A stretch of DNA of 64,000 nucleotides from the NCBI RefSeq assembly GCF_003054245.1, contig NZ_QBKR01000008.1, forward strand, positions 62,001 through 126,000, read 5' to 3'. Positions 5,181 to 17,128 of the stretch are shown here, piece after piece. Position 1 is the first letter of the stretch. Each line of letters starts with the position of its first letter. The DNA comes from Melghirimyces profundicolus (GTDB lineage Bacteria > Bacillota > Bacilli > Thermoactinomycetales > DSM-45169). The notes below the pieces were generated by a model, which was given only the letters and a program-made list of their open reading frames with translations, did no database searches and had not been told where the DNA came from. Both the position numbers and the translations under genes were made by a program.

Positions 5181-6518
5181 ATGGCACAAATGGAAACCTG
5201 CGAGATCGGAGAAGTTATAAGGAAAATCCGAAAAGAAAAAGGATTGAGGCTGGAAGATCTTTCGGACGAACATATTTCCCCCGCCACCATCAGCAACCTG
5301 GAACGGGGCATTCCCCATGTGAAAAAAGAAAAACTCCTTTATCTTCTTGAGAAATTGGACCTGTCCCTGAACCAATTGCCGGAATTGCTCATGGATGAAA
5401 AACAAAATCTGGCCCATGTTCGGTTTCAACTGGAAGCGATTGAATCGATGCAGCGTTTCAATCAGTTGGATCCAGCCTTGGACTCATTAAACGCTTTGGG
5501 TTTGGACGACGGTCACCCCTACGCCCCGACGATGTATTGGTTAAGAGGAGTCTGCTATATGTTTCAGAATAAAATCGAACGGGCTGAAAGGGAACTCTTC
5601 AGTGCGATTCGACTGTCCAGCCAAAGCAGCCAGGCAAAATGGGACAATATCGAATCCTACAGTTTTAATGATTTGGGCCTTTGCGCTTATAAACAAAACG
5701 ACTTACAAAAAGCACTAAAGTTCACCGGGAGCGGACTGGCATCCTTTGTTCCCGAAGGAAACCGGAAGGTCGTCAAATACATCCTGCTTCGAAATAAGGC
5801 AATCTATTTGGAGCGATTGGGTCGCACCGTGGACGCGTTGAATACCGTTCAGGACGTATGGAACGATCTCGCCCACATCGAACAATCGGAAACCCTTTTT
5901 ACCTTCTACTGGCTGCGGGGTGAATTGCTGCGTAAAAGCGGGGCGATTGACGAAGCCATTCAATATGCACGTAAAGGCATCGAGCTCGCCTCGTTGAACA
6001 GCTACTACAAAAGCGCTTTCGATCTTTGGTCACTCCTCGGCAGCTTATACACGGAAAAAAGTGCGTGGGATGAAGCGGAAACATGCTTCAATCTCGCCAT
6101 GAGTATGCCGAAAGAAATGGTATACACCAACCAGTACATAAACACCTGCACCAAGCTCGGGAATTTATATTTGTATAAAGGCGACTGGGAAAAAGCGGAG
6201 GAATATTTAAACTTGGCCATCCGGGAAGGAGAAGATTACACCTCCCCCACTTATTTAACAGATGCTGTTTTAATCAAAGGTCACTTTTATTACAAGCAAA
6301 AAAGGATCCGGAAAGCCATCGCTTCTTATCAAAGAGCCGTCGAATTGTCAAAAAAATTTCATTTTCCGGACAAAGAATACCAAGCCTGGTATCATCTCGC
6401 CAGGTGTTGGAAGGATATGGACGGGAAGGAATTTATGCACTCCACGGAGAATATGTTTATTGCGCAAGAAAAACTGACACAAAAAGAAAGGAGGGGGGAT
6501 CATTTTGAAATGGTTTAA
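5181..6518 (+). CDS. HTH-TPR transcriptional regulator, RRNPP type
   Basis: A 445-aa cytoplasmic regulator. Residues ~7-67 are an XRE-type helix-turn-helix (EVIRKIRKEKGLRLEDLS, then SPATISNLERG). The remainder is alpha-helical with tetratricopeptide repeats, clearest at ~240-270 (LRGELLRKSGAIDEAIQYA), ~278-309 (LGSLYTEKSAWDEAETCF), ~316-347 (LGNLYLYKGDWEKAEEYL) and ~354-386. This layout and length match peptide-responsive RRNPP receptors such as NprR and PlcR, where the TPR domain binds an imported pheromone. The 3' end overlaps by 14 bases a small gene for a secreted peptide, the typical cognate arrangement. The start at 5181 follows AAGGAAGTGA. Which family member it is cannot be settled by eye. 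Confidence 0.88.
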   Translation: MAQMETCEIGEVIRKIRKEKGLRLEDLSDEHISPATISNLERGIPHVKKEKLLYLLEKLDLSLNQLPELLMDEKQNLAHVRFQLEAIESMQRFNQLDPALDSLNALGLDDGHPYAPTMYWLRGVCYMFQNKIERAERELFSAIRLSSQSSQAKWDNIESYSFNDLGLCAYKQNDLQKALKFTGSGLASFVPEGNRKVVKYILLRNKAIYLERLGRTVDALNTVQDVWNDLAHIEQSETLFTFYWLRGELLRKSGAIDEAIQYARKGIELASLNSYYKSAFDLWSLLGSLYTEKSAWDEAETCFNLAMSMPKEMVYTNQYINTCTKLGNLYLYKGDWEKAEEYLNLAIREGEDYTSPTYLTDAVLIKGHFYYKQKRIRKAIASYQRAVELSKKFHFPDKEYQAWYHLARCWKDMDGKEFMHSTENMFIAQEKLTQKERRGDHFEMV

Positions 6519-6890: not shown

Positions 6891-7250
6891 TTACGGCTTG
6901 GGACCTGCCTTCTCCAACACGATCTCCAACCAACCTCTCAACTCCCGGACTTCCCGTTCCAGGCTTTCCAACCGGGCTTCCAGGTCCGGGGAGGGACGAT
7001 CGGGAGCTCCTCCGTTCCGGTTCAGCTTCCACCGCTGAAAGCGTTCGTAGAGAAGGAGGAGGCTGGGATCATTGACCACGGTGTCGATCAAGGCGTCCTC
7101 GAAGGTCTCCCGGTAGCCCGGCATCCCGTGGTCGCTTGCGTAGATGAGGTGTTTTTCCAGGAGACGGGGGATCTGTTCGTTATTCGGTCCGCCGCTCTGC
7201 CGGTAGAACGCCTCAATGCGTTCATCCATCGTCATTTTTTCATTCGCCAT
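6891..7250 (-). CDS. Hypothetical protein, C-terminal coiled coil
   Basis: A 119-aa protein I do not recognise. The start at 7250 follows GGGAG eight bases upstream; an in-frame ATG at 7265 lacks a ribosome site. The N-terminal two thirds look helical (DERIEAFYRQSGG, LLEKHLIYASDHGMPGY). The C-terminal ~35 residues have heptad spacing (LEARLESLEREVRELRGWLE), suggesting a short coiled coil and oligomerisation. It is the last gene of the DUF6230/DUF6114 cluster, 20 bases after the secreted HPr-like protein gene, so probably part of that operon. Confidence 0.7.
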   Translation of the reverse strand: MANEKMTMDERIEAFYRQSGGPNNEQIPRLLEKHLIYASDHGMPGYRETFEDALIDTVVNDPSLLLLYERFQRWKLNRNGGAPDRPSPDLEARLESLEREVRELRGWLEIVLEKAGPKP

Positions 7251-7270
7251 CTCATTCACTCCCATGGGAT

Positions 7271-8530
7271 TTATTCTTTCTCACCCAGAAAATCCGCCAG
7301 GGCGTCAACGGCCCGTTTCGCCTCCTTCCCTTCCGCCGACAGAATGATCTTCGTCCCGGAGGTGATGTTCAGGTTCAAAACCTCCGTCAGATTCTTGGCG
7401 TCCGCCTTTTGATCACCCCGCCGAACCGTAATCTCCGCCTCGTATCGATTGGCCTCCCTTACAAACGGAAGCGCCGAAAGGAGTCGACCGAGACCGCCCT
7501 TTAATGTTACAACCACTTCTTTCACCGTTTCCCCCGCTCCGCCGTCATCCATCCCCGGAATCTCACCGCCTCCGTCATCGGGAGGGAGAAGGGGCGGTTC
7601 AGCTGGCTGTGGTGATTTCGGGTCGGGCAGACGGGGTTCTGCAGGCGGTTCCGCCGGTTCGGGAATCGGCGTGCTCTTCGGCGGTTTCGTCGGTCCAGGC
7701 TCCTCCGAACCCGGCTCTTTCGATAAGTCTTCCCCCGACAATCGGCCCAGCGTCCCGTTGACGAGGTCCGTCAATCCTTTCAATCCTTGAACCTCGGGCA
7801 ACCGCTCCAGGTCGAAAACAGGGTCGTCGGACGCCAGGGAAACCTTTCCTTTCGTCTGTAAATCCATCTGCGGCATGCCGACGTGATCCGCATCCAGCCG
7901 CTCCACCTTCAAATAGACGTCGTAAAGAACAACGGAAGGAAGCGATTGATCCAGTTTTAACGGAGGTCCTTTCACTTTGAACCCCAAGGCGGTGGCATCG
8001 GCATCCAGGTTTTGGATCGATACGGGACCCGCGTCGCCGATCTCCGCCCCCCACGGCCCCGTCGGCGTCTTTTGTCCCGTGACCAATTTCATGCCATAGG
8101 CCTCCGCCCGCTTGGCGGAGAGGCGGATCGCCACTCGACCGGTCTCCGTCACCGTCAGGGAAGGGATCAGCCCTTGGATTTCAAGACGTTCGGCACGGAC
8201 GACGACCCCTTCCTCCGGAGCCGTCCGGGCAAGCGGTACGCTCAGCTTCTCATCCTCCGGGGAACCCGGCTTCTCCGTTGCCGCCTCATCCATTGCGGAA
8301 CTTTCCGCTTCCTCTTCCTTCGGAAGGGTCGTCTCCCCCTTCGAAGCCTCCTGCCCGGGAGACGGCTTCAGCACTCCGGGCATCCGAGGGTGCTCCGGTT
8401 GAGCCAGCACGCCCCCGTCCGCAAAAAACACCATCGAGCCACAGAATGTCAGGACCAGAATCCTCCCGGCGGTCCGGCGAAATGACGATGGCAAACTCTT
8501 CACCCCCTTGATCCACCCTTTTTCATTCAT
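7271..8530 (-). CDS. Secreted protein with Pro-rich linker and degenerate HPr/Crh-like C-terminal domain
   Basis: A 419-aa protein. Residues ~20-44 form an export signal (ILVLTFCGSMVFFADGGVLAQ). Residues ~105-245 are a beta-rich region with VVVRAERLEIQGL and VYLKVERLDADH repeats that recall the neighbouring DUF6230 protein. Residues ~265-335 are a Pro/Glu/Asp/Gly linker. Residues 336-419 align along their whole length with HPr/Crh: REANRY matches Crh QEANRF, and DAKNLTEVLNLNI matches NAKSIMGLMSLAV. The phosphorylatable His-15 motif (GLHARPA) is replaced by GLGRLLSA and Ser-46 by Asn, so this cannot be a normal phosphocarrier. It lies downstream of the DUF6114 gene with a 6-base gap. Function is unknown. 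Confidence 0.8.
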   Translation of the reverse strand: MNEKGWIKGVKSLPSSFRRTAGRILVLTFCGSMVFFADGGVLAQPEHPRMPGVLKPSPGQEASKGETTLPKEEEAESSAMDEAATEKPGSPEDEKLSVPLARTAPEEGVVVRAERLEIQGLIPSLTVTETGRVAIRLSAKRAEAYGMKLVTGQKTPTGPWGAEIGDAGPVSIQNLDADATALGFKVKGPPLKLDQSLPSVVLYDVYLKVERLDADHVGMPQMDLQTKGKVSLASDDPVFDLERLPEVQGLKGLTDLVNGTLGRLSGEDLSKEPGSEEPGPTKPPKSTPIPEPAEPPAEPRLPDPKSPQPAEPPLLPPDDGGGEIPGMDDGGAGETVKEVVVTLKGGLGRLLSALPFVREANRYEAEITVRRGDQKADAKNLTEVLNLNITSGTKIILSAEGKEAKRAVDALADFLGEKE

Positions 8531-8536
8531 TCCTTC

Positions 8537-9031
8537 CTACTTGAACCATTGATGCCATGTAGCGGCAGCTTCCCGTTCAGCGGACCCTGTGTCTTCTCCG
8601 CATTCTTCCTTCGCGTCTTCGGCCCCTTCCTCGCCCGTGCCCGGGGAAGCCGGGCCCCAAGCAAGGCATAGAGCTCCACCCACAATTCCCAGCACAGTGC
8701 CGATGATCAGCCCGCCCAGCGCTCCGATGATCGAGGTGATCGACAGGATCATCGCAAATGCCCCCAGAAGTCGTACATATTGCGGCATCAACCACCCCAG
8801 AACTCCGCAGCTGAGCACCAGCACGCCGAACATCAACCCGGCAAAGGCGAAACTGCCCGGAACGAACGCCAGCCAATACAGGTTGACCGGAATCCACAAA
8901 ATGAACAATCCGGACAGACACACCAAGGTGAGAGCCAGCTTCGGCCGCTTTTTTTCGTCAAACCGGCGGTCTGCCTGCGAATCCGGTCCCGAATGGTTCA
9001 AAGACCTCTCCCCGACGACGGTTTCCCGCAT
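8537..9031 (-). CDS. DUF6114-family membrane protein
   Basis: A 164-aa protein with four hydrophobic segments between residues ~30 and ~125 and a charged Glu/Asp-rich tail. The segments AFAGLMFGVLVLSCGVLGW and GTVLGIVGGALCLAWGP match the conserved core of DUF6114 proteins, which in actinomycetes are usually next to DUF6230 genes. The start at 9031 follows AAGGGGTG. The DUF6230 gene lies upstream but is separated from it by a 309-bp dispersed repeat. No biochemical role is established for the family as far as I know. Confidence 0.75.
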   Translation of the reverse strand: MRETVVGERSLNHSGPDSQADRRFDEKKRPKLALTLVCLSGLFILWIPVNLYWLAFVPGSFAFAGLMFGVLVLSCGVLGWLMPQYVRLLGAFAMILSITSIIGALGGLIIGTVLGIVGGALCLAWGPASPGTGEEGAEDAKEECGEDTGSAEREAAATWHQWFK

Positions 9032-9050: not shown

Positions 9051-9359
9051 GAAGCGTTGTGATTGAATGTTCGTTTCGAGAAATGGGGAAGCGTTTACCC
9101 AAAATAGCGACTTTGCTGTCCTGCCCGGCGGAGAATCAGCCTGCAAGGGCGTTCAGGGGCAAAAGCTTCTCTGTGTTGCATCCGAAGGCGTTTTGCCCCT
9201 GCCCGCAGCAGGATGATTCGGAGCAGACAGTGCCTCCATCTCAGCAGGACAGCATAGCGAGACCGGGGAGCACAAGCGACTCAGGCGAGACTTGTGCTCT
9301 GTGAGTGCAGCCGGAGCGGCTTTGGGTAAATGCTGCCGCTCATCTTTTCACAACGCCTT
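9051..9359. repeat. Dispersed intergenic repeat, copy B (long form, ~309 bp)
   Basis: The left end is GAAGCGTTGTGA (9051-9062) and the right end TCACAACGCCTT (9348-9359), near-perfect terminal inverted repeats. Inside are the CTCGAAACGAACAT block (inverted), the TGCTGTCCTGCCCGGCGGAG block, a CAGGGGCAAAAGC/GCCCCTGCCC inverted repeat and the GGTAAATGCTGCCGCTCA block shared with other copies. It fills the whole gap between the DUF6230 and DUF6114 genes and its right end overlaps the DUF6230 stop codon (9358-9360). No transposase is present. Confidence 0.8.
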
Positions 9360-9903
9360 AAGGGTTCATCTCAAGTTTCAAGCTGAGCCCCGGCAGCGAA
9401 ATGCTGTTGGCAAAAAGGTAGTGACCTTGAATCGACGGCTTTTTCAGCACCACTTCGGGAGCGGACAAGCCAAATTTTTGCTGCCAATCGCTTCTGTTTT
9501 TCTCCGCTATTTTCAGTTTGTTAAAGGATGCGTCCGCATCCAGCTTGCTTAGATCGAGGACGAGCCCCGAAGCTTTCACATCTTCGGATGCCGTAATCAG
9601 CACACGGACTTTTCCTTTTCCCGGGACATTGAGATCTTTGTACAACTTGAGGTTTTTGATCACGCCATCCAGCTGGGCGCTTCCTTGCGGATATGCCGCC
9701 CGTTCGCTGGTTTCGCCGATCTTGGGCAACAGCTTGAAATTACTCATTTGGATCTCGTCCGCCTCAACGGTGAATCCCCCGATCCCCCCGATGGGCACGG
9801 CCAGGGCCACACCCCCGGTCCAAATTCCCAATACCATGGCGAACACCAAACACAGGGCGGCGACCACGCTCGACCAGAACCATTTTCCCCGGTACTTCAA
9901 CAT
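9358..9903 (-). CDS. DUF6230-family secreted or membrane-anchored protein
   Basis: A 181-aa protein. The start at 9903 follows AAAGGAGG; the longer frame upstream is not supported. One N-terminal hydrophobic segment (residues ~10-35) acts as signal or anchor. The rest is beta-rich, with FTVEADEIQMSNFKLLP, LDGVIKNLKLYKDL and LVLDLSKLDADASF, the pattern I associate with DUF6230. In actinomycetes the family is paired with DUF6114, as here. A dispersed repeat abuts the stop codon and separates the two genes. Assignment is by recalled family pattern, not a search. Confidence 0.72.
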   Translation of the reverse strand: MLKYRGKWFWSSVVAALCLVFAMVLGIWTGGVALAVPIGGIGGFTVEADEIQMSNFKLLPKIGETSERAAYPQGSAQLDGVIKNLKLYKDLNVPGKGKVRVLITASEDVKASGLVLDLSKLDADASFNKLKIAEKNRSDWQQKFGLSAPEVVLKKPSIQGHYLFANSISLPGLSLKLEMNP

Positions 9904-9938
9904 CGGTTCCTCCTTTGACAGTGATGGATTGCTATCAT

Positions 9939-11708
9939 TCAAGCTCTCTTGGAGCGAATGACCCGCCATATGAGATAAACGCTGAGGGCAGAAGACCCCC
10001 ACAGCATCCCCGTACCCAACCAACGAAGGGATGGAATCGCATTCAATATTTCTGTTCCAAAGGAGAGCAAGATGGAGGCTCCCGTGAACAACCCGCCGGC
10101 CATCACGGCCAAGGTCACCCGGTTGACCATTTTGTTTATTTTGTGAATCAAATGATCGTCCACCCGGTTTTCCACGATCAGTTTCAGATCATTCCAAGCC
10201 AGTTTTTCCAATATTTTGTTGATTCGCCTGGGAAGGGTACCGACCAATTTGCCCGCTTCCGTAATCAGACTGGCATTCGCCCGGAAGTTGAATCGGCGGG
10301 ACAACCAGCGACGTAACATCTGCACATCCGCCGACTCCACCACCGTGTGGTAGCTGATCTCCGGACACAACCACCGGGCCGTCCCCTCCGCCGCCGTGAA
10401 CCCTTTCGCCCACAGTGCCAATCCGTTGGGGATCCGGCAGGAGTTCAGCATCCCGATGGTGATGATCTGAATGACCAGGTGGCCCCAGTTGTATTTGCTG
10501 GCCTGTTCGCTGTTGACATAGTGGATGAACATCGAACGCAGCTGATCCTTTAAATGAACCGGATCGGTATAGGGGGTGGGTTGGACGATGTCCAGAGTCG
10601 CTTCTGCCGCGTCCTCCGCTTGATTCAGCCGGGTATGCAGCAGCATGCGGAAAATCGCTTCCGTGTGGAGTGAATCCATTCGTCCCACCATGCCCCAATC
10701 GATAGCAAACGCTTTTTTGGAATGGCGGTCAATCATGATATTGGAGCCGTGGGGATCCGCGTGATAAAAACCCTGGGAAAAGGTTTTGATGTAATAATGG
10801 GCCAAGTCCGTCATCCGTTCAAAACGCTCTTCAAAGCTCAGTAAATCCACCGGAAACTCTTTTAAATTCCATCCATCGACAAACTCCATCACCAGGACAT
10901 GTTCCGCAACCGCATACACCTGGGGTACGTCGATCGTTTCAAACTCCTCCATGATCTCCCGGTGATCATTCATATTGCGCGCTTCGATGCGCATGTCCAA
11001 CTCATTGGTCGAACTGCTGTAATAGTCGTTGATCAACCCCGGCAAGTCGGCGGAGGCCGCCAAGGCGGGCGGAAGCAGCTTTTGCACCCGCTTGACCAGC
11101 TTTCTGATGATGGCGATATCCGTTTGAAACAGTTTGTCGACCATGGGGCGGACCACTTTCACCGCACACTGCCGCCCGTCTTTCAACCGCGCCCTGTACA
11201 CTTGGGCCAAGGAAGCGGACCCGATGGGCTCCGGGTCGATCCATTCAAATGTATCCAACCCTTCGGGAAGCTCGTCGTCCAGGATGGCGGCCATAAACGA
11301 AAACGGCATGGGTGGCACTTCGTCCAACAATTCCGCCAGTTCCGTCGTAATCGGCTCGGGGATCAGCTCCTGCCGGGTGACGAGCACTTGACCCAGCTTG
11401 ATAAAGGTGGGACCCAGTTCTTCGAACACCAGCCGCAGGCGGCGGCCGATGTTGTGCAGTTGTTCTTCCTCCTCTTTGTTGCGGTTCCTTCGGAACAGCC
11501 GGAACATTTTCCGGTCGCGCAAAAGGTGAAGCAGTCCGTGTTTGGCAAACGTCCGCACCATCGCCCGGTAACGCTTCCCTTTCGTGATCCCCTCTCTCAT
11601 TTTTTGAATGGCAAGTTGCGCCCGTTTCTTATCTGCCGCTGAAAATTCCTCTCCTGTCACGCCTCGCCTTTTTTCCGACAGCTTTTCCACCGGAGTCGCA
11701 GTCACCAT
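9939..11708 (-). CDS. AarF/ABC1/UbiB atypical kinase family protein
   Basis: A 589-aa protein of the ABC1/ADCK/UbiB family, linked elsewhere to isoprenoid-quinone or lipid homeostasis. Typical motifs are the KxGQ segment (FIKLGQVLVTRQELIPEP), the Ala-rich nucleotide loop (IGSASLAQVYRARLKDGRQ), catalytic FYHADPHGSNIMI and metal-binding AIDWGMVG. Two hydrophobic segments near the C-terminus (residues ~530-580) probably anchor it in the membrane. The start at 11708 follows GGGGGA; an upstream ATG in the same frame lacks a ribosome site. It is downstream of the DUF6230 gene by orientation only, with no evidence of shared function. Confidence 0.92.
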   Translation of the reverse strand: MVTATPVEKLSEKRRGVTGEEFSAADKKRAQLAIQKMREGITKGKRYRAMVRTFAKHGLLHLLRDRKMFRLFRRNRNKEEEEQLHNIGRRLRLVFEELGPTFIKLGQVLVTRQELIPEPITTELAELLDEVPPMPFSFMAAILDDELPEGLDTFEWIDPEPIGSASLAQVYRARLKDGRQCAVKVVRPMVDKLFQTDIAIIRKLVKRVQKLLPPALAASADLPGLINDYYSSSTNELDMRIEARNMNDHREIMEEFETIDVPQVYAVAEHVLVMEFVDGWNLKEFPVDLLSFEERFERMTDLAHYYIKTFSQGFYHADPHGSNIMIDRHSKKAFAIDWGMVGRMDSLHTEAIFRMLLHTRLNQAEDAAEATLDIVQPTPYTDPVHLKDQLRSMFIHYVNSEQASKYNWGHLVIQIITIGMLNSCRIPNGLALWAKGFTAAEGTARWLCPEISYHTVVESADVQMLRRWLSRRFNFRANASLITEAGKLVGTLPRRINKILEKLAWNDLKLIVENRVDDHLIHKINKMVNRVTLAVMAGGLFTGASILLSFGTEILNAIPSLRWLGTGMLWGSSALSVYLIWRVIRSKRA

Positions 11709-11762
11709 GATTCCCCCGTTTCCGCCAAACTTTAAAAATCCAATGATCATTCATAATGGATA

Positions 11763-11800
11763 ATCGGCGATGGAGGACTGGAAGTCTACCATCGCCGATC
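11763..11800 (-). terminator. Hairpin after the aldehyde dehydrogenase gene
   Basis: ATCGGCGATGG...CCATCGCCGAT is a perfect 11-bp inverted repeat with a 14-16 base loop, between the ALDH stop and the AarF-like start. The T-tract is weak, so it may be a terminator or a processing or stability element. Confidence 0.5.
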
Positions 11801-11845
11801 CGTAACAGAACGACTCACCACACTTTCCAAGACGGAACCACGCTT

Positions 11846-13339
11846 CTAGGTCAAGTTCACCCACACGCTCTTCACTTCGGTGTAATGCTCCAGAGCGTAG
11901 GGTCCCATTTCCCTTCCCACTCCGCTCTGTTTGAACCCGCCCCAGGGGCTGGCGGCATCAATCATGTTGTATCCGTTCACCCAGACCGTACCCGCCTTGA
12001 GGGAGTGGGCCACCCGGACCGCTTTCGCAATATCCCGGCTCCAAACCCCTGCCACCAGACCATAAGGGGTATCGTTGGCCCGTTTCACGACATCGGGTAC
12101 ATCCTTGAAGGGAAGGACCGTCAGAACGGGACCGAATATCTCCTCCCGGGCCACTTCCATGTCGTCCCGTCCTTCCAACACGGTCGGCCGGATGAAGTAA
12201 CCCTTCCCTTCCCCCCGTTCCGCTCCGGCGAGGACGCGCGCCCCTTCCTCCTTCCCCCGCTGGATGTAGCCCCAGACCCGGTCCCGGTGGGTTTCACTGA
12301 TCAGGGGCCCCATCTGGGTGGTCAGGTCCACCCCGGGTCCCTGGCGGATCGTATGCGCCCTCTCCACCACCTTCTCCAGCACCTTGTCATAGATGTTTTG
12401 GTGAAGATAGAGGCGGGAACCGGCGGCGCAAACTTCTCCCTGGTTAAAGAAGATACTCATCATCACCCCGCCGGCGACCGCATCGGGGTCGGCGTCAGGA
12501 AACACAATATTGGGAGATTTTCCACCCAACTCCAAAGAAAGGCGCTGGAAGTGGTCGGCTGAGTTCCGGACGATCTCCCGGCCCACCGCCGTTGATCCCG
12601 TAAAGGAAACTTTGTCCACCTCCGGATGGCGGGTGAGCGCAGCCCCCGCCGTCGGACCGTAACCGGGGAGGATATTGACCACCCCCGGCGGGATGTCGGC
12701 CTCCTGAACCAGCTCTCCCAGACGCAGCGCCGTCAGGGGGGTCAGTTCCGAAGGCTTCAGCACGACGGTGTTCCCGCAGGCCAGGGCCGGCGCCAGTTTC
12801 CAGGAAGCGATCATCAGCGGGAAGTTCCAAGGGACGATCGCCCCCACCACCCCCAGGGGTTCCCGACGGGTGTAGGCCAGATATTCCCCGGGAAAGGAGA
12901 CCGGGAGCGTCTCTCCCGTCAGCTTGGTGGTCCACCCCGCGAAATACCGGAAATGGTCCACTGTCTGAGGGATGTCCACCATCGATGTCTCCGTCACGGG
13001 TTTGCCGGTGTCCAAAGACTCCAGCTGGCTCAGCTCTTCGGCGTGCTCCTCGATCAGGTCGGCCAGTTTCCACAAGAGCCGCCCCCGCTCCGCCGGGCTG
13101 ATGTTCCCCCAGGTACCCTCCAGTGCCCGGCGGGAGGCGGCAACGGCGTCGTCCACATCCTCCGCATCCGCTTCATAAAGCTCGGCCAGGGGTTCCCCCG
13201 TCGCCGGATCCATCGTTTGAAACGTTTTTTCCGAACGGGAGGCGACCCGCCGGCCGCCGATCAAAAGTCTCAAAGGCGCCCCTTGCACAAACCGTTTCAC
13301 ATCGGGGTGAAGGGTGGGTGTCTCCAGGGTGGAGGTCAT
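11846..13339 (-). CDS. NAD(P)-dependent aldehyde dehydrogenase
   Basis: A 497-aa enzyme that oxidises an aldehyde to the acid. Diagnostic motifs are the cofactor loop FTGSTAVGREI, the general base in LELGGKSPNIVF, the nucleophile in FFNQGEVCAAGSR and the EEIFGPVLTV motif. The start at 13339 follows AAGGAG. It is the last gene of the SCP2-ADH-R2lox-ALDH operon, four bases after the R2lox stop, so it probably oxidises the aldehyde made by the adjacent alcohol dehydrogenase. Its overall resemblance is to betaine- and phenylacetaldehyde-type dehydrogenases; the substrate is not deducible. Confidence 0.92.
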   Translation of the reverse strand: MTSTLETPTLHPDVKRFVQGAPLRLLIGGRRVASRSEKTFQTMDPATGEPLAELYEADAEDVDDAVAASRRALEGTWGNISPAERGRLLWKLADLIEEHAEELSQLESLDTGKPVTETSMVDIPQTVDHFRYFAGWTTKLTGETLPVSFPGEYLAYTRREPLGVVGAIVPWNFPLMIASWKLAPALACGNTVVLKPSELTPLTALRLGELVQEADIPPGVVNILPGYGPTAGAALTRHPEVDKVSFTGSTAVGREIVRNSADHFQRLSLELGGKSPNIVFPDADPDAVAGGVMMSIFFNQGEVCAAGSRLYLHQNIYDKVLEKVVERAHTIRQGPGVDLTTQMGPLISETHRDRVWGYIQRGKEEGARVLAGAERGEGKGYFIRPTVLEGRDDMEVAREEIFGPVLTVLPFKDVPDVVKRANDTPYGLVAGVWSRDIAKAVRVAHSLKAGTVWVNGYNMIDAASPWGGFKQSGVGREMGPYALEHYTEVKSVWVNLT

Positions 13340-13343
13340 CGGT

Positions 13344-14225
13344 TCACACTCCTTCTTCCAGAGGGGACGACCAGACTTCATCCAGGTTCCGCTGGGTGTT
13401 TTCCAGCCGGTCCATCCGGGCACTGAACTGTTTCATGGCAAAGTCCAGGAAGGTTTCCTTCTCCATGCCGAAGGGGTTACCTTCGATCCGGTCCCACAGT
13501 TCGTTGACCACCCCGATGGCGTAAGGGAGGAGGAGCTCCATCCGCTTGCTGAGGACTTCCCACAGATCGGGGTCCGCGGCCACCAGGCGTTGAAGAAGAT
13601 AGGTGCCGTAAGCAATGTGGCGGGATTCGTCCCGTTGGAGGTAACCGATTCCTTGGACGATGCCCGGCATTTTGCCCTGCTCTTTCAATGCCTGGTAAAA
13701 GGCCTGGTAGCCGGTCTCCGCCAACACCCCCTCCACGATCATGTTGTAAGTGACGGAGGCTTCCACCATCGCCTCAGGAGAGGGATCCCCGATCAGGCGT
13801 TCCATCGCCCGGGGAAGATATTCATAAAAGATGGCCCGGTAATTATCCTGAAAGTTGGGAGTGAGGTCCCCCTCCGCCCCGATCACCTCGTCCAGAAACC
13901 GGCGGAACAGTTCGGTGTGCTTCGCTTCTTCAAACAGGAATGTGGTCAGGTACATCTCCTCCTCCACCCGGCCTTCCAGGGAGATGGCCCGGATCAGCGG
14001 CAGGAGGTCGCGGGTGACTGCTTCTTCCCCCGCCTGGAACATGGAGCAAAGGCGAAGGATGGTCTCCTTCTCCGACTCGTCCATGGCCTTCCAGTCTTTG
14101 ATGTCCCGGGAGAAATCGATCTCTTTCGGATCCCACACCCCCAGCTTCTTCGCCTTGTGATACAGGCGCATGGGCAGAAGATCGTGGTTCAGCCCCTGCT
14201 CCCCCGTCGTCTGCAATTCCCTCAT
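13344..14225 (-). CDS. R2-like ligand-binding oxidase (R2lox), Mn/Fe type
   Basis: A 293-aa ferritin-fold oxidase. All six metal ligands of R2lox are visible: Glu68 (AGEEAV), Glu100 and His103 (EEAKH), Glu165 (IVEG), Glu200 and His203 (DESRH). Val70 and Tyr160 occupy the positions that form the ether crosslink in Geobacillus R2lox, with a constant two-residue offset from that protein. R2lox is known to bind a long-chain fatty-acid-like ligand and assemble a Mn/Fe cofactor, but its natural reaction is unknown. The start at 14225 follows AAAGGAGG. The genomic partners (lipid-binding SCP2, ADH, ALDH) suggest oxidation of a hydrophobic substrate. Confidence 0.9.
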   Translation of the reverse strand: MRELQTTGEQGLNHDLLPMRLYHKAKKLGVWDPKEIDFSRDIKDWKAMDESEKETILRLCSMFQAGEEAVTRDLLPLIRAISLEGRVEEEMYLTTFLFEEAKHTELFRRFLDEVIGAEGDLTPNFQDNYRAIFYEYLPRAMERLIGDPSPEAMVEASVTYNMIVEGVLAETGYQAFYQALKEQGKMPGIVQGIGYLQRDESRHIAYGTYLLQRLVAADPDLWEVLSKRMELLLPYAIGVVNELWDRIEGNPFGMEKETFLDFAMKQFSARMDRLENTQRNLDEVWSSPLEEGV

Positions 14226-14240
14226 GTTCATCCTCCTTTG

Positions 14241-15287
14241 TTATAAGGAACCATCCAGGATCACCTTGCTCGCTTCCCGTTTGTCAAACAGCCGGTACCC
14301 TTCCGCCGCCTGACTGAGGGGAAGGCGGTGGCTCACCACCACCGTCGGATCGATCCGGCCGCCCCGGACCAGGGCCAGTGTGGCATCCATATCCCGGTGG
14401 ATGTTGGCCAATCCGATCCGGAACGTGACATCCTTGGTCAGGCTGTTCATCAGCGGATAGGCAAAGGTATCCTCCGCCGTCACTCCCACCGCGGAAATCC
14501 GGCCGCCCCCCCGCACCAGCTCAAAGGCCAGTTTCAGAGTGGGAGATCCGCCCACCGCTTCGATGACCACATCCACTCCCTCCCCGTCTGTTCCGTTCAG
14601 AATGCGGGAGGATGGGTTCACTTCCCCCGACGGGACAGGGACAGCCCCCAATTTCTCCGCCAGGTCGGTCCGTTCTCTCACCAGATCGACGGCGAATACC
14701 TTGGAAGCCCCCATCGCCAAAGCGCTCTGGACCGCCATGATTCCCACCGGACCGCAGCCGATCACCGCGACGGTCTCTCCGGGTTGCAAACCGCTGTTGG
14801 CCACGGCCCCGTAAGCGGTGGTGAGGATGTCGCCGGAAAAAAGCGCCTGTTCATCGGTCAATCCGTCGGGTACCCGGCGCAGGGTGGTATCGGCGAAGGG
14901 AATCCGGGCGTATTCCGCCTGGGTTCCGGCGAGATCGCCGAAGGCAATCCCGTAACCCAGCACCCCGCCGTGCTCGCACTGATTGTAGGCCTCCCGCCGG
15001 CACATCCGACAACGGCCGCAAGCGACGTGAAATGCCCCCACCACCCGCTCGCCCTTTCGAAAAGCCGTCACTTGGGAACCGACCTCTTCCACCACTCCGA
15101 CATACTCGTGGCCGATGATATGGCCCGGCAACAATCCCGGGATGGCGTTGTGGTACAGATGCAGATCGGATCCGCAAATCGCGCCCGTGGTCACCCGGAT
15201 GATGACGTCCGCCGGATGCTGGATCCGGGGGTCTTCCACCCTTTCCACGCGGACATCTCTTTCCCCGTGGAACGTAACCGCTTTCAT
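14241..15287 (-). CDS. Zinc-dependent medium-chain alcohol dehydrogenase
   Basis: A 348-aa MDR-family dehydrogenase. Catalytic zinc ligands are Cys38 and the His60-Glu61 pair, and the structural zinc site is Cys90, Cys93, Cys96 and Cys104 (CGRCRMCRREAYNQC). The NAD-binding turn is VIGCGPVGIM. Its general pattern is that of the glutathione-independent formaldehyde or threonine-dehydrogenase-like branch. Its ATG overlaps the SCP2 stop codon (ATGA), indicating tight co-translation, and R2lox follows after 15 bases. It probably converts an alcohol product to the aldehyde used by the downstream ALDH. Confidence 0.92.
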   Translation of the reverse strand: MKAVTFHGERDVRVERVEDPRIQHPADVIIRVTTGAICGSDLHLYHNAIPGLLPGHIIGHEYVGVVEEVGSQVTAFRKGERVVGAFHVACGRCRMCRREAYNQCEHGGVLGYGIAFGDLAGTQAEYARIPFADTTLRRVPDGLTDEQALFSGDILTTAYGAVANSGLQPGETVAVIGCGPVGIMAVQSALAMGASKVFAVDLVRERTDLAEKLGAVPVPSGEVNPSSRILNGTDGEGVDVVIEAVGGSPTLKLAFELVRGGGRISAVGVTAEDTFAYPLMNSLTKDVTFRIGLANIHRDMDATLALVRGGRIDPTVVVSHRLPLSQAAEGYRLFDKREASKVILDGSL

Positions 15288-15706
15288 TTCACCGCCTCCG
15301 GAAACTCCGCTTCCACCTGCAACGCGGACTCCACCAGGTACTTGGCGGCAAGGACGTATGCCGACAGGGTGGACATATTTCCCTTTTCCAGCTTCATCCT
15401 CCCCCTCATGATCGTGGAGATCGGCTCCAGTTTCCGATCGAAGATCTGTTTCCAGGTGAATACATCGGCGCTGATCACATAGGGCGCGGAATCGATGTCA
15501 TCCGGACCGGCCACTTTCGCTTCCCGGCACTCCCCCCGGTACAGGTCCAGAAAGATCGCCTCATCTTCCTCCAGTCCCAAAGACGGATCTTTTTCCATCT
15601 TCAGCACGAGAGGCCATTCCCAAGTAGCGGCGGCTTGCTTGTACTGAGGGTTTTGGTTGATCGCTTCACACCAGGCTTTCGCCCATTCTTCGTCGAAAAC
15701 CATCAT
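15284..15706 (-). CDS. SCP2 sterol-carrier-like lipid-binding protein
   Basis: A 140-aa protein with the single-domain SCP2 pattern: an N-terminal helix (FDEEWAKAWCEAINQN), a beta sheet region (TWEWPLVLKM) and C-terminal helices with MRGRMKLEKGNMSTLSAYV, the conserved segment lining the hydrophobic tunnel. It probably binds or delivers a fatty or other hydrophobic compound. It is the first gene of the R2lox operon and overlaps the alcohol dehydrogenase start by four bases. I chose ATG 15706, nine bases after AGGAG; ATG 15712 and 15703 are alternatives. Confidence 0.82.
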   Translation of the reverse strand: MMVFDEEWAKAWCEAINQNPQYKQAAATWEWPLVLKMEKDPSLGLEEDEAIFLDLYRGECREAKVAGPDDIDSAPYVISADVFTWKQIFDRKLEPISTIMRGRMKLEKGNMSTLSAYVLAAKYLVESALQVEAEFPEAVK

Positions 15707-15781
15707 GATCATCCACTCCTGTCCTGGGTGTGTTTATTCGGTTTTGTATATCGAATAGTATAATCATTCAGATATTATCAC

Positions 15782-15824
15782 AACCCCGAAATTTCGGGGT
15801 TTGCTCCCCCCATGTTTATGGGGG
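15782..15824. promoter_or_regulatory. Palindromic operator candidates between the R2lox operon and its regulator
   Basis: A perfect 20-bp palindrome (AACCCCGAAATTTCGGGGTT, 15782-15801) is followed by a second inverted repeat, CCCCCAT...ATGGGGG (15807-15824). They lie between the divergent SCP2 and GAF-LuxR genes, next to an AT-rich TATACT-like -10 for the operon on the minus strand. The shape suits dimeric regulator binding, most simply by the adjacent LuxR-type protein. Binding is inferred. Confidence 0.55.
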
Positions 15825-15934
15825 TACGATGTTGTATTATTTTAAATTTTCATCTCACCTGTTGAATCGAACCCGTGGTATACTGTGAAATAACATTGAT
15901 TCCATCCCATTTCTGCGGAAAGGAGGAACTTCCG

Positions 15935-17128
15935 ATTCGACCCCCCGATTTTCCGGCCTATCCTCTCGTATCCCGTCAGGAGCTGAGCCGGATCCTGGAG
16001 ACGGTGCATCGCGGCAGGCAGGAATGCTTGGCCGCCTGGAAGGTCCGTCTTTCCACCTTCCGGATGACGGCCCGGGAAAAGCAGGCGGCCCAAGGGTTGT
16101 TCCAATATCTCCTGGACCACTTCCACGATTCCGCCAACTTCTCCGGCTTTAAAGAGCAGTTCTTCCAACGCACGGCGGAGTACCGTTCAATTTTGGGCTT
16201 GCAACACACGGTGGCGGTCATCGGGCTGTTTGAAGAGATCATCCTCGTGCTGCTGTTGGAACGGCAGGGACGTCCCGATGTACACACCAGTTACCGTTGG
16301 CTCCACTCCCTGACCCTCTCCCTTCTCTGCTCAATCACCCGGGAGCATTCGGAAGGCCGCCGAAAGGAGAGGAACGGGCCAAAGCTTCCGTTACCCGGAT
16401 CGGACGAAAGGTCGCCGAGATTGAAGCGGATGGAAGCCATTACCCGCTTGGATGAGTGGCTGCTGACCTCCCGCACCCTGGAGGAGGCGCTTTCCCGTTC
16501 GGTCCGTTTTATCACGGAGGCGACGGGATTCCGGCGGGGAGCCCTTTTTTGGTATTCCTCCCTTTCCCGGACCGTGGAGGGAATCTACGCCCACGAGGTG
16601 GACCTTGGCGAAATCCGCCGAATCCGTGATGTGGAGGGAAACATACCCGCGATCGCCCGGGTCATGAAGGAAACCAAACCCCTTTATCTCCGGGAGGCGC
16701 GACTTTACTTTCCCGCCCACTATGTGGAAAAGTTCGGACTCACCTCCCTTCAGACCGCCACCCTGTACGGCCCTCAACGACAACCGGTGGCGTTTCTGTT
16801 GCTGGACCAGGAAGGCCGGCCCTTTGAACCGGATCCGGACACTGAACACCTCCTCACCGATCTGATTTCGCGGGTTTCGCTCACACTCCGGTTCCGGTTG
16901 TTTGAAAACGCTTTCACCCATGTGGACGCCGCTCCCCCGTTGACTCCACGGGAACGTGAAATCCTGCAGATGATCGCCGACGGCCATTCCACGCGGGAAA
17001 TCGGACAGGCGCTTCACCTGAGTGAACACACCGCCGCCGAATATGCCCACTCCGTTCTCCGGAAACTGAAAGCCAAAAACCGGCCCGAGGCGGTGGCGGT
17101 CGGTTTGAGGAAAAGCTGGATCCGTTGA
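15935..17128 (+). CDS. GAF-domain transcriptional regulator with LuxR-type HTH
   Basis: A ~397-aa regulator. The middle (~residues 165-310) has a GAF-like pattern (LEEALSRSVRFITEATGF...). The C-terminus is a LuxR/GerE helix-turn-helix: LTPREREILQMIADG, then STREIGQALHLSEHTAAEY. The start is unusual: the only strong ribosome site, AAAGGAGG at 15919-15926, lies inside the longer GTG-initiated frame (15875) and is followed eight bases later by ATT at 15935. A TATACT box at 15879-15884 also overlaps the GTG region, favouring the later start. Divergent from the R2lox operon, which it probably controls in response to a small ligand. Confidence 0.85.
   Translation: MRPPDFPAYPLVSRQELSRILETVHRGRQECLAAWKVRLSTFRMTAREKQAAQGLFQYLLDHFHDSANFSGFKEQFFQRTAEYRSILGLQHTVAVIGLFEEIILVLLLERQGRPDVHTSYRWLHSLTLSLLCSITREHSEGRRKERNGPKLPLPGSDERSPRLKRMEAITRLDEWLLTSRTLEEALSRSVRFITEATGFRRGALFWYSSLSRTVEGIYAHEVDLGEIRRIRDVEGNIPAIARVMKETKPLYLREARLYFPAHYVEKFGLTSLQTATLYGPQRQPVAFLLLDQEGRPFEPDPDTEHLLTDLISRVSLTLRFRLFENAFTHVDAAPPLTPREREILQMIADGHSTREIGQALHLSEHTAAEYAHSVLRKLKAKNRPEAVAVGLRKSWIR

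Follow-up and report, generated by a model that had tools for sequence, protein, structure and literature searches.

What do R2lox oxidases do in the cell? They have been the subject of structural work for over a decade, but their physiological reaction is not agreed upon, and the one recent claim, from 2024, comes from crude lysate. The question is raised by a locus of Melghirimyces profundicolus, which we analysed within a stretch of 64,000 nucleotides (contig NZ_QBKR01000008.1, positions 62,001 to 126,000 of the forward strand; hereafter, the window). There, an R2lox gene lies in a string with the genes of an SCP2-fold lipid carrier, a zinc alcohol dehydrogenase (ADH) and an aldehyde dehydrogenase (ALDH), next to a divergent regulator gene. 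An inspection of the sequence alone (hereafter, the sequence-only reading) had proposed these genes as a possible complete pathway around an oxidase of unknown reaction. We found that the operon is genuine and conserved and that the enzyme at its centre belongs to a known family, and we lean, with somewhat more confidence than doubt, towards its encoding an inducible pathway that oxidises a hydrophobic substrate with a long chain, the most likely candidates being hydrocarbons such as n-alkanes, or related lipids. Evenly balanced, in our view, is the more specific proposal that SCP2 acts as the substrate-delivery subunit of a large R2lox branch, either fused to the oxidase or encoded first in the operon, and that, in the lineage of the window, a GAF-LuxR switch that senses hydrocarbons controls this system through a tandem CCCC-N8-GGGG operator. 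If true, a carrier feeding a Mn/Fe oxygenase would be an unusual answer to the problem of how soluble enzymes reach water-insoluble substrates.

R2lox and the genes that accompany it

The four genes at the centre of the locus are the following (coordinates are those of the window):

15284-15712, minus strand: SCP2-fold lipid carrier, first gene of the operon (Pfam PF02036, 24.4 bits against a gathering score of 21.3)
14241-15287, minus strand: zinc MDR-type ADH (Pfam ADH_N and ADH_zinc_N)
13344-14231, minus strand: R2lox (NCBIfam NF006202, 382.6 bits against a curated equivalog cut-off of 315)
11846-13339, minus strand: ALDH (Pfam Aldedh, E 6.9e-183; nearest solved chain 5gtk)

The SCP2 and ADH genes overlap by 4 bp (ATGA), and gaps of 9 and 4 bp separate ADH from R2lox and R2lox from ALDH, respectively, the ALDH start being placed at ATG 13339 (a longer open reading frame begins at GTG 13423). 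R2lox possesses the six metal ligands (two His and four Glu: E69, E102, H105, E167, E202 and H205), the Val-Tyr crosslink pair (V72/Y162) and the small tunnel residue A171; all of them, as well as Y175, are invariant in the 112 aligned R2lox sequences. The gene order, the overlap, the metal ligands and the crosslink residues thus agree with the sequence-only reading. A small residue at the position of A171 opens the ligand tunnel; in R2 proteins this position holds Phe (PMC6399176). The R2lox proteins of M. tuberculosis and Saccharopolyspora (3ee4 and 7qbp) match that of the window in sequence, and the oxidase domain of a fused relative described below shares their fold; the Saccharopolyspora protein belongs to a clade far from the window R2lox. 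The profile of the SCP2 family (A2) matched the solved SCP2 chains 1wfr (E 8e-46) and 2cx7 (E 2e-45), presumably from Thermus thermophilus, which belong to the same family as the window carrier and were deposited as stand-alone chains. For the ADH, the nearest solved chain was 4cpd, an alcohol dehydrogenase (E 1.7e-121) that we take to be a Thermus enzyme with a broad range of alcohols; this resemblance does not seem to indicate an activity restricted to formaldehyde.

We tabulated the neighbourhoods of 114 R2lox genes, coming from a scan of genome contigs, from the window's order and from plasmids and other loci. The scan contributed 79 loci, which represent the best 80 of 541 confirmed candidates, so that the sample is biased towards close relatives of the window. 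Comparison of the surroundings within 4 kb of R2lox (845 kb) with those 5.5-9.5 kb away (650 kb) showed a strong enrichment near the gene of SCP2 (31 near, 0 far), MDR-type ADH (15 and 1), iron-ADH (24 and 2) and ALDH (31 and 1), as well as of LuxR regulators (21 and 3), ABC1 kinases (15 and 5) and a small conserved protein, SM124 (11 and 3); these counts include one duplicate locus (L144, identical to L057), count neighbours twice where a locus has two R2lox genes, come in part from related, non-independent genomes, and miss the more distant ADH and ALDH of loci L103 and L105 and the SCP2 of L128. With L144 left out (here and in the residue and group counts), 113 R2lox genes had within 4 kb SCP2 in 33 cases (seven of them fused), ADH in 38 (15 MDR-type and 23 iron-ADH) and ALDH in 28; all three partners accompanied 14 and none accompanied 56. 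Among the 92 genes flanked on each side by 3 kb or more, the corresponding counts were 30, 35 and 25, with all three in 13 cases and none in 41. Hence, the situation that the sequence-only reading had regarded as fatal, most R2lox genes standing without any partner, does not hold overall in this sample, which leans towards relatives of the window. A duplicate of the L022 locus (L116), short copies (L117-L124) and SCP2-only loci (L132-L139) had been dropped before these counts, and one truncated R2lox gene (L114) was kept in the neighbour counts and left out of the tree and the residue counts.

The ADHs found beside R2lox are of three kinds: the MDR type of the window, MDR enzymes dependent on N,N-dimethyl-4-nitrosoaniline (NDMA), and the unrelated iron-ADH family, found for example in the order R2lox-ALDH-iron-ADH in L144 and L145 (the iron-ADH assignment was checked with Pfam on one gene). 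That one oxidase is accompanied by ADHs of unrelated families fits an alcohol intermediate.

The window's order contained 21 R2lox genes (one truncated) in 18 of 42 genomes, and ten full-length SCP2 genes in the 42, all of them adjoining R2lox. ADH and ALDH accompany four of these ten SCP2-R2lox loci (the window, L116/L022, L103 and L105); in L103 and L105 an ADH-ALDH-DUF6230-DUF6114-HPRX block precedes SCP2, whereas these genes are interleaved in the window. The exact order SCP2-ADH-R2lox-ALDH was found in nine further loci (L021, L022, L024, L027, L131 and L140-L143), counting L027, the ALDH of which is cut by the contig end. They include Candidatus Carbobacillus altaicus (L021), Paludifilum halophilum (L022), the Alicyclobacillaceae genome Bu37 (L131), in which the kinase, DUF6230, DUF6114 and HPRX genes then follow as in the window, and four genomes of one genus belonging to another class of the phylum (L140-L143). 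The L021 locus (9947-15123) has two R2lox genes flanking SCP2 and ADH, in the order R2lox-SCP2-ADH-R2lox-ALDH.

Comparable clusters exist on actinobacterial plasmids. Three Rhodococcus plasmid R2lox genes are accompanied by an NDMA-dependent ADH, a FAD oxidoreductase and a ferredoxin, and the clusters of R. opacus B4 (L127) and R. oxybenzonivorans (L128) additionally hold an ALDH, an SCP2 protein and an acyl-CoA ligase, the order in R. opacus B4 being ADH-R2lox-FAD oxidoreductase-ferredoxin-ALDH-SCP2-acyl-CoA ligase. The clusters of Rhodococcus plasmids pROB01 and pRB11 resemble the window in joining R2lox with ADH, ALDH and an SCP2 protein, but differ from it in the NDMA-dependent type of ADH, in the ferredoxin, FAD oxidoreductase and acyl-CoA ligase, and in the SCP2 subfamily. 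Plasmid pMyong1 of M. intracellulare carries R2lox, a small protein, an acyl-CoA ligase and an NDMA-dependent ADH; the small protein is a homologue of the L127 SCP2 and has itself no Pfam match. Since the window-type A2 profile missed the Rhodococcus SCP2 proteins and the small pMyong1 protein at E<10, and the L127 protein is an SCP2 by Pfam, a different SCP2 subfamily stands beside R2lox in Actinobacteria. None of these neighbours occurs by the Haloterrigena R2lox (L129), and the plasmid R2lox of G. kaustophilus (L130) has an iron-ADH ~5 kb away.

Carrier-oxidase fusions

In seven of the 79 scan loci (L028, L044, L058, L077, L082, L088 and L095), SCP2 and R2lox form a single open frame. A Pfam scan of three of these fusions placed both domains above the cut-off in L028 and L082; the SCP2 domain of L095 remained below it (17.4 against 21.3 bits) and scored 1.7e-46 with an iterated profile. 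Two further fusions (L180 and L189) were found among 396 Acidobacteriota genomes, bringing the fused proteins to nine, and in a tree of 41 R2lox sequences, the backbone of which is weak, these nine fall on several branches. The L028 fusion was modelled with a predicted local distance difference test score (pLDDT) of 91.8 and a predicted template-modelling score (pTM) of 0.87, with a weak linker at residues 137-153. The modelled oxidase part aligned to the R2lox structures 3ee4 and 7qbp (Z 35, 2.1-2.2 Å, 263 residues), in a search that used the whole fusion and the match list of which was filled by the oxidase domain. These natural carrier-oxidase fusions suggest that the carrier feeds R2lox a long-chain lipid or hydrocarbon.

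We also considered a single ancestral SCP2-R2lox fusion. Placement of the fused proteins in one clade was rejected by the approximately unbiased (AU) test (p=0.0013; tree with a weak backbone), a result compatible with either fusions or fissions having come first. Near or upstream of four of the fused genes (L044, L077, L082 and L088) there is a gene for a GTPase of ~750 amino acids, which we take to resemble the ferrous-iron transporter FeoB.

The downstream genes, the regulator and its putative operator

Downstream of ALDH, the gene string continues with five genes and ends at a hairpin:

9939-11750, minus strand: ABC1 (UbiB-like) atypical kinase (Pfam ABC1, E 7.7e-48)
9358-9903, minus strand: DUF6230 protein with an N-terminal hydrophobic segment, P21-like (Pfam DUF6230, E 1.9e-12, searched with an open reading frame one residue longer, 9358-9906)
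8537-9031, minus strand: DUF6114 protein (Pfam DUF6114, E 1.6e-22)
7271-8530, minus strand: HPRX, with a signal-like N-terminus (read by eye) and a C-terminal HPr-like domain (Pfam PTS-HPr, E 6.5e-15, residues 337-415)
6891-7265, minus strand: SM124, small conserved protein without a Pfam family, last gene
6882-6861, minus strand: terminator-like hairpin after the last gene, 9 pairs, 8 of them G-C

The extent of 11846-17128 given in the sequence-only reading was thus too short, as the string comprises nine genes running from 15712 down to 6891. They are probably co-transcribed, but the gaps of 95 bp before the kinase, 35 bp before DUF6230 and 326 bp before DUF6114 (followed by gaps of 6 and 5 bp) make an internal promoter possible. 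Terminator-like sites show no overall excess in the region (10 found, 12.9 expected), and a sigma-70 scan gave one site with 3.0 expected.

The kinase scored 163.2 bits against the ABC1 cut-off of 22.9 and did not reach the UbiB equivalog cut-off (255.6 against 487.55 bits, E 6.5e-76), so we consider it as a member of the ABC1-kinase family and do not file it as UbiB itself. It adjoins R2lox in L097-L100 and L102-L106 and follows ALDH in L021, L022/L116 and L131. SM124 is likewise conserved near R2lox and ABC1 (its structural model was poor, with pLDDT 72 and pTM 0.31), and SCP2-R2lox-ABC1-SM124 forms a recurrent core (L097-L100 and L103-L105; L102 ends at the contig end), found without SCP2 in L106. 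A UbiB-like kinase in this core would also suit maintenance of the cell envelope or of quinone/isoprenoid lipids, with R2lox modifying an endogenous lipid and the two dehydrogenases having joined by chance or for detoxification; the regulator orthologues that stand beside DUF6230-DUF6114-HPRX where no R2lox adjoins (see below) are consistent with such a role. However, ten loci, counting that of the window, keep the order SCP2-ADH-R2lox-ALDH, and four of these belong to a different class of the phylum; this and the acyl-CoA ligase and ferredoxin of the Rhodococcus clusters argue against a maintenance role, which we consider unlikely. DUF6114 and HPRX travel with DUF6230. The HPr-like domain of HPRX has GLGRLL in place of the HPr phospho-histidine motif GLHARP, and its phosphorylation site therefore seems lost.

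On the other side of the operon start lie the regulator and its putative binding sites:

15935-17128, plus strand: divergent GAF-LuxR regulator (Pfam GAF and GerE; alignment with nine homologues)
15807-15824, unstranded: operator dyad 1, CCCCCAT-GTTT-ATGGGGG, kept upstream of DUF6230 or SCP2 in relatives
15782-15801, unstranded: operator dyad 2, a 20-bp perfect palindrome, the aligned position being CCC/CCCC-N8-GGG in most relatives
15752-15771, minus strand: -10-like element GAATGATTATAC downstream of the dyads, conserved, read by eye in the alignment

The open reading frame of the regulator opens at GTG 15875 and its orthologues indicate a start at ATT 15935; since there is no in-frame ATG near the start and most orthologues begin near this ATT, located 8 nt after AGGAGG, a rare ATT start may be used. 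The nine aligned homologues are 26-52% identical to the window protein. Some of them lie by R2lox: in L104 (41%), L106 (34%), L131 (34%, one gene between) and L021 (26%, on the R2lox strand). Others are divergent to DUF6230-DUF6114-HPRX (L147, L148, L152, L154 and L155, 38-52%), as is a further homologue in L151 (E 9e-79); the DUF6230 blocks L149 and L150 have no adjoining regulator, and L153 does not extend far enough to show whether it has one. L151 (G016:C17:89000-108900) holds the regulator, an SCP2 remnant and DUF6230-DUF6114-HPRX without R2lox, and looks like a decayed locus from which R2lox has been lost.

The conserved site emerged from comparing the regulator-gene intergenic regions as gapped dyads; an arm-length search for perfect inverted repeats found none common to the relatives and the window. 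Seven aligned regions share the pattern CCCCCAT..ATGGGGG, ~7 nt, CCCC-N8-GGGTTG and then a sequence similar to the -10-like element, the tandem dyad being weaker in L155 and L104. CCCC-N9-GGGG occurs in six of ten intergenic regions, compared with at most three in 200 shuffles, some of these regions being kin (L152 and L154 belong to one genus, the window and L148 to another). Within the genome, the 20-bp palindrome has no second copy at up to three mismatches, and the window dyad is the sole match with both spacers A/T-rich (judged by eye). A relaxed operator pattern gave 9 and 12 matches genome-wide, compared with 8 and 12 in the control, and we therefore claim no wider regulon. The divergent regulator and palindromic sites of the sequence-only reading are thus real and conserved and support regulated expression, although the inducer control that it attached to them is inferred. 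We propose that the GAF-LuxR protein would bind the tandem CCCC-N8-GGGG dyads, which lie immediately ahead of the promoter, and that, on sensing an inducer, it would turn the operon on.

Substrate and reaction

The proposed pathway would start with SCP2, which would bind the substrate and pass it to R2lox; R2lox would hydroxylate it with O2 at its Mn/Fe centre, and the zinc ADH and then the ALDH would take the resulting alcohol on to the aldehyde and finally the acid. The UbiB-like kinase and SM124, as the core of the branch, probably help the substrate leave the membrane, and the DUF6230, DUF6114 and HPRX proteins may work at the cell surface. The electron donor would be encoded elsewhere. 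The first step of hydrocarbon oxidation is known to be catalysed by AlkB, LadA, CYP153 and multicomponent alkane/methane monooxygenases, which are unrelated to R2lox, or related with a different subunit make-up, R2lox being a single-protein Mn/Fe oxidase. The loci described here offer several handles on this proposal: a fusion protein suited to purification, the plasmid ferredoxin and FAD oxidoreductase as candidate electron donor, and a reporter promoter with a defined operator.

A hydrocarbon substrate is suggested by two sets of published observations. P21 and P16 are membrane-fraction proteins of alkane-grown Geobacillus; long alkanes induce them, whereas palmitic acid does not (PMC2676291). 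Compared with the window DUF6230 protein, the P21 N-terminus scored 58 (shuffle maximum 41) and an internal P21 peptide 50 (33), so that P21 peptides align with both ends of the window protein, and the P16 N-terminus scored 44 (39); the comparison covered peptides of P21 and P16. In G. kaustophilus HTA426, the R2lox gene GK2771 (GkR2loxI) lies with the ALDH GK2772, the ADH GK2774 and the P21 orthologue GK2770; alkane hydroxylation was claimed for GkR2loxI in 2024, crude recombinant lysate lowering C10-C22 alkanes (PMC10867098). The R2lox reaction is therefore no longer without a proposal, as the sequence-only reading had it. GkR2loxI is 44% identical to the window R2lox over the fragment compared, and its cluster shares with the window R2lox, ALDH and ADH, with a P21 orthologue next door there and a P21-like DUF6230 in the window string. 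The window has in addition SCP2 and the UbiB-like kinase; the accessible text of PMC10867098 contains neither 'SCP2' nor 'sterol carrier', the kinase not having been looked for there. Thus, for the association put forward in the sequence-only reading, enrichment near R2lox and the fusions support the grouping, but its ADH/ALDH part was already published (PMC10867098) and the SCP2 partner is what appears new. We found no SCP2-R2lox partnership or fusion in the literature searched, subscription papers lying outside it, and general literature searches, none of them dedicated to these points, turned up neither the kinase/SM124 core nor the Rhodococcus electron-transfer genes nor the operator.

Several observations weigh against hydrocarbon oxidation by such a pathway. 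In the accessible text, the alkane report describes alkane loss in crude lysate and no hydroxylated product, and the E202A/H205A mutant of GkR2loxI lost activity only partly (PMC10867098). Two of the five P21/P16 peptides give little or no match (one P21 peptide aligned weakly, p 0.024, and another did not match), and DUF6230 adjoins R2lox in only 3 of the 12 DUF6230-bearing genomes of the order, a fourth being on a contig too short to tell. No clear enrichment near R2lox was seen for acyl-CoA ligase (14 near, 9 far), DUF6230 (6 and 3), DUF6114 (4 and 7) or ferredoxin (3 and 2). A lack of partners does prevail in Chloroflexota, where 24 of 25 R2lox genes have no SCP2, ADH or ALDH within 4 kb (outside this phylum, 17 of 67 lack all three). 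In the window's order, 11 of the 21 R2lox genes have no adjoining SCP2, and five of the ten SCP2-R2lox loci have no ADH and ALDH within ~6 kb, a further one being cut by its contig end. Among these five is a second R2lox of the same genome (G000:C2; 62% identical to the window copy; one of the family searches that showed it covered 10 genomes), located in an SCP2-R2lox-kinase-SM124 locus without ADH or ALDH, the SCP2 of which scored 33.6 bits with Pfam. ADH and ALDH are hence better described as accessory. Moreover, none of the operon's genes could be recognised as an electron-transfer gene, and 'complete pathway' is therefore too strong a term; the Rhodococcus plasmid clusters carry a ferredoxin and a FAD oxidoreductase.

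SCP2-R2lox-ABC1-SM124 loci without ADH and ALDH, even in the genome of the window, are what would be expected if R2lox carried out another two-electron oxidation, such as desaturation, of a fatty acid or membrane lipid, with ADH and ALDH clearing lipid-derived alcohols and aldehydes, and SCP2 and the kinase handling membrane lipid. R2lox structures have a long-chain fatty acid sitting on the metals (PMC6399176), and desaturation has been proposed as the R2lox reaction (PMC4118035). Nevertheless, the recurrence of several kinds of ADH beside R2lox fits an alcohol product better, and both the alkane report and the P21-like DUF6230 speak for hydrocarbons, so that we regard such an oxidation as a serious but clearly less probable explanation.

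The carrier family also occurs widely apart from the oxidase. In the 396 Acidobacteriota genomes, 22 of 26 SCP2 genes had no R2lox within ~1.5 kb, a few of the stretches ending at contig ends (one of the four R2lox-linked genes, L178, is the already known locus L041), and in one Chloroflexota class (249 genomes) 115 of the 146 SCP2-bearing genomes had no R2lox. These copies would be expected if SCP2 were a general carrier placed beside R2lox by happenstance and neighbourhood inertia, with no direct functional link. This seems to us very improbable in view of the fusions on several branches, the 31 near and 0 far occurrences of SCP2 and the second SCP2 subfamily beside R2lox in Actinobacteria, and hydroxylation with SCP2 as carrier remains our preferred reading.

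A match to the SCP2 profile, as such, was tried as proof of dedication to R2lox and refuted by the many R2lox-free copies in the unselected Acidobacteriota and the Chloroflexota class. In genomes chosen for R2lox, strong SCP2 matches (E <= 2e-44) were R2lox-linked in 16 of 16 cases because of that selection. Clustering of the neighbours of R2lox-free SCP2 genes gave no recognised common partner. In the Chloroflexota class, SCP2 occurs in 31 of 38 genomes with R2lox and 115 of 211 without (p=0.002), a comparison that ignores kinship and carries no weight.

Some additional features were observed. A divergent SCP2 of the window family is common in the Chloroflexota class to which G451 (L032) belongs (146 of 249 genomes). 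A PF00268 search over the window genome matched the two R2lox genes and nothing else; as it revealed no small subunit (R2) of a class I ribonucleotide reductase, a reductase of another class is to be expected in this organism. In two Acidobacteriota, a gene of the 5'-nucleotidase family directly follows R2lox (L068, by Pfam PF05761; L056, by resemblance). Finally, in the window, a helix-turn-helix/TPR gene (5181-6518, plus strand) converges on the 3' end of the operon.

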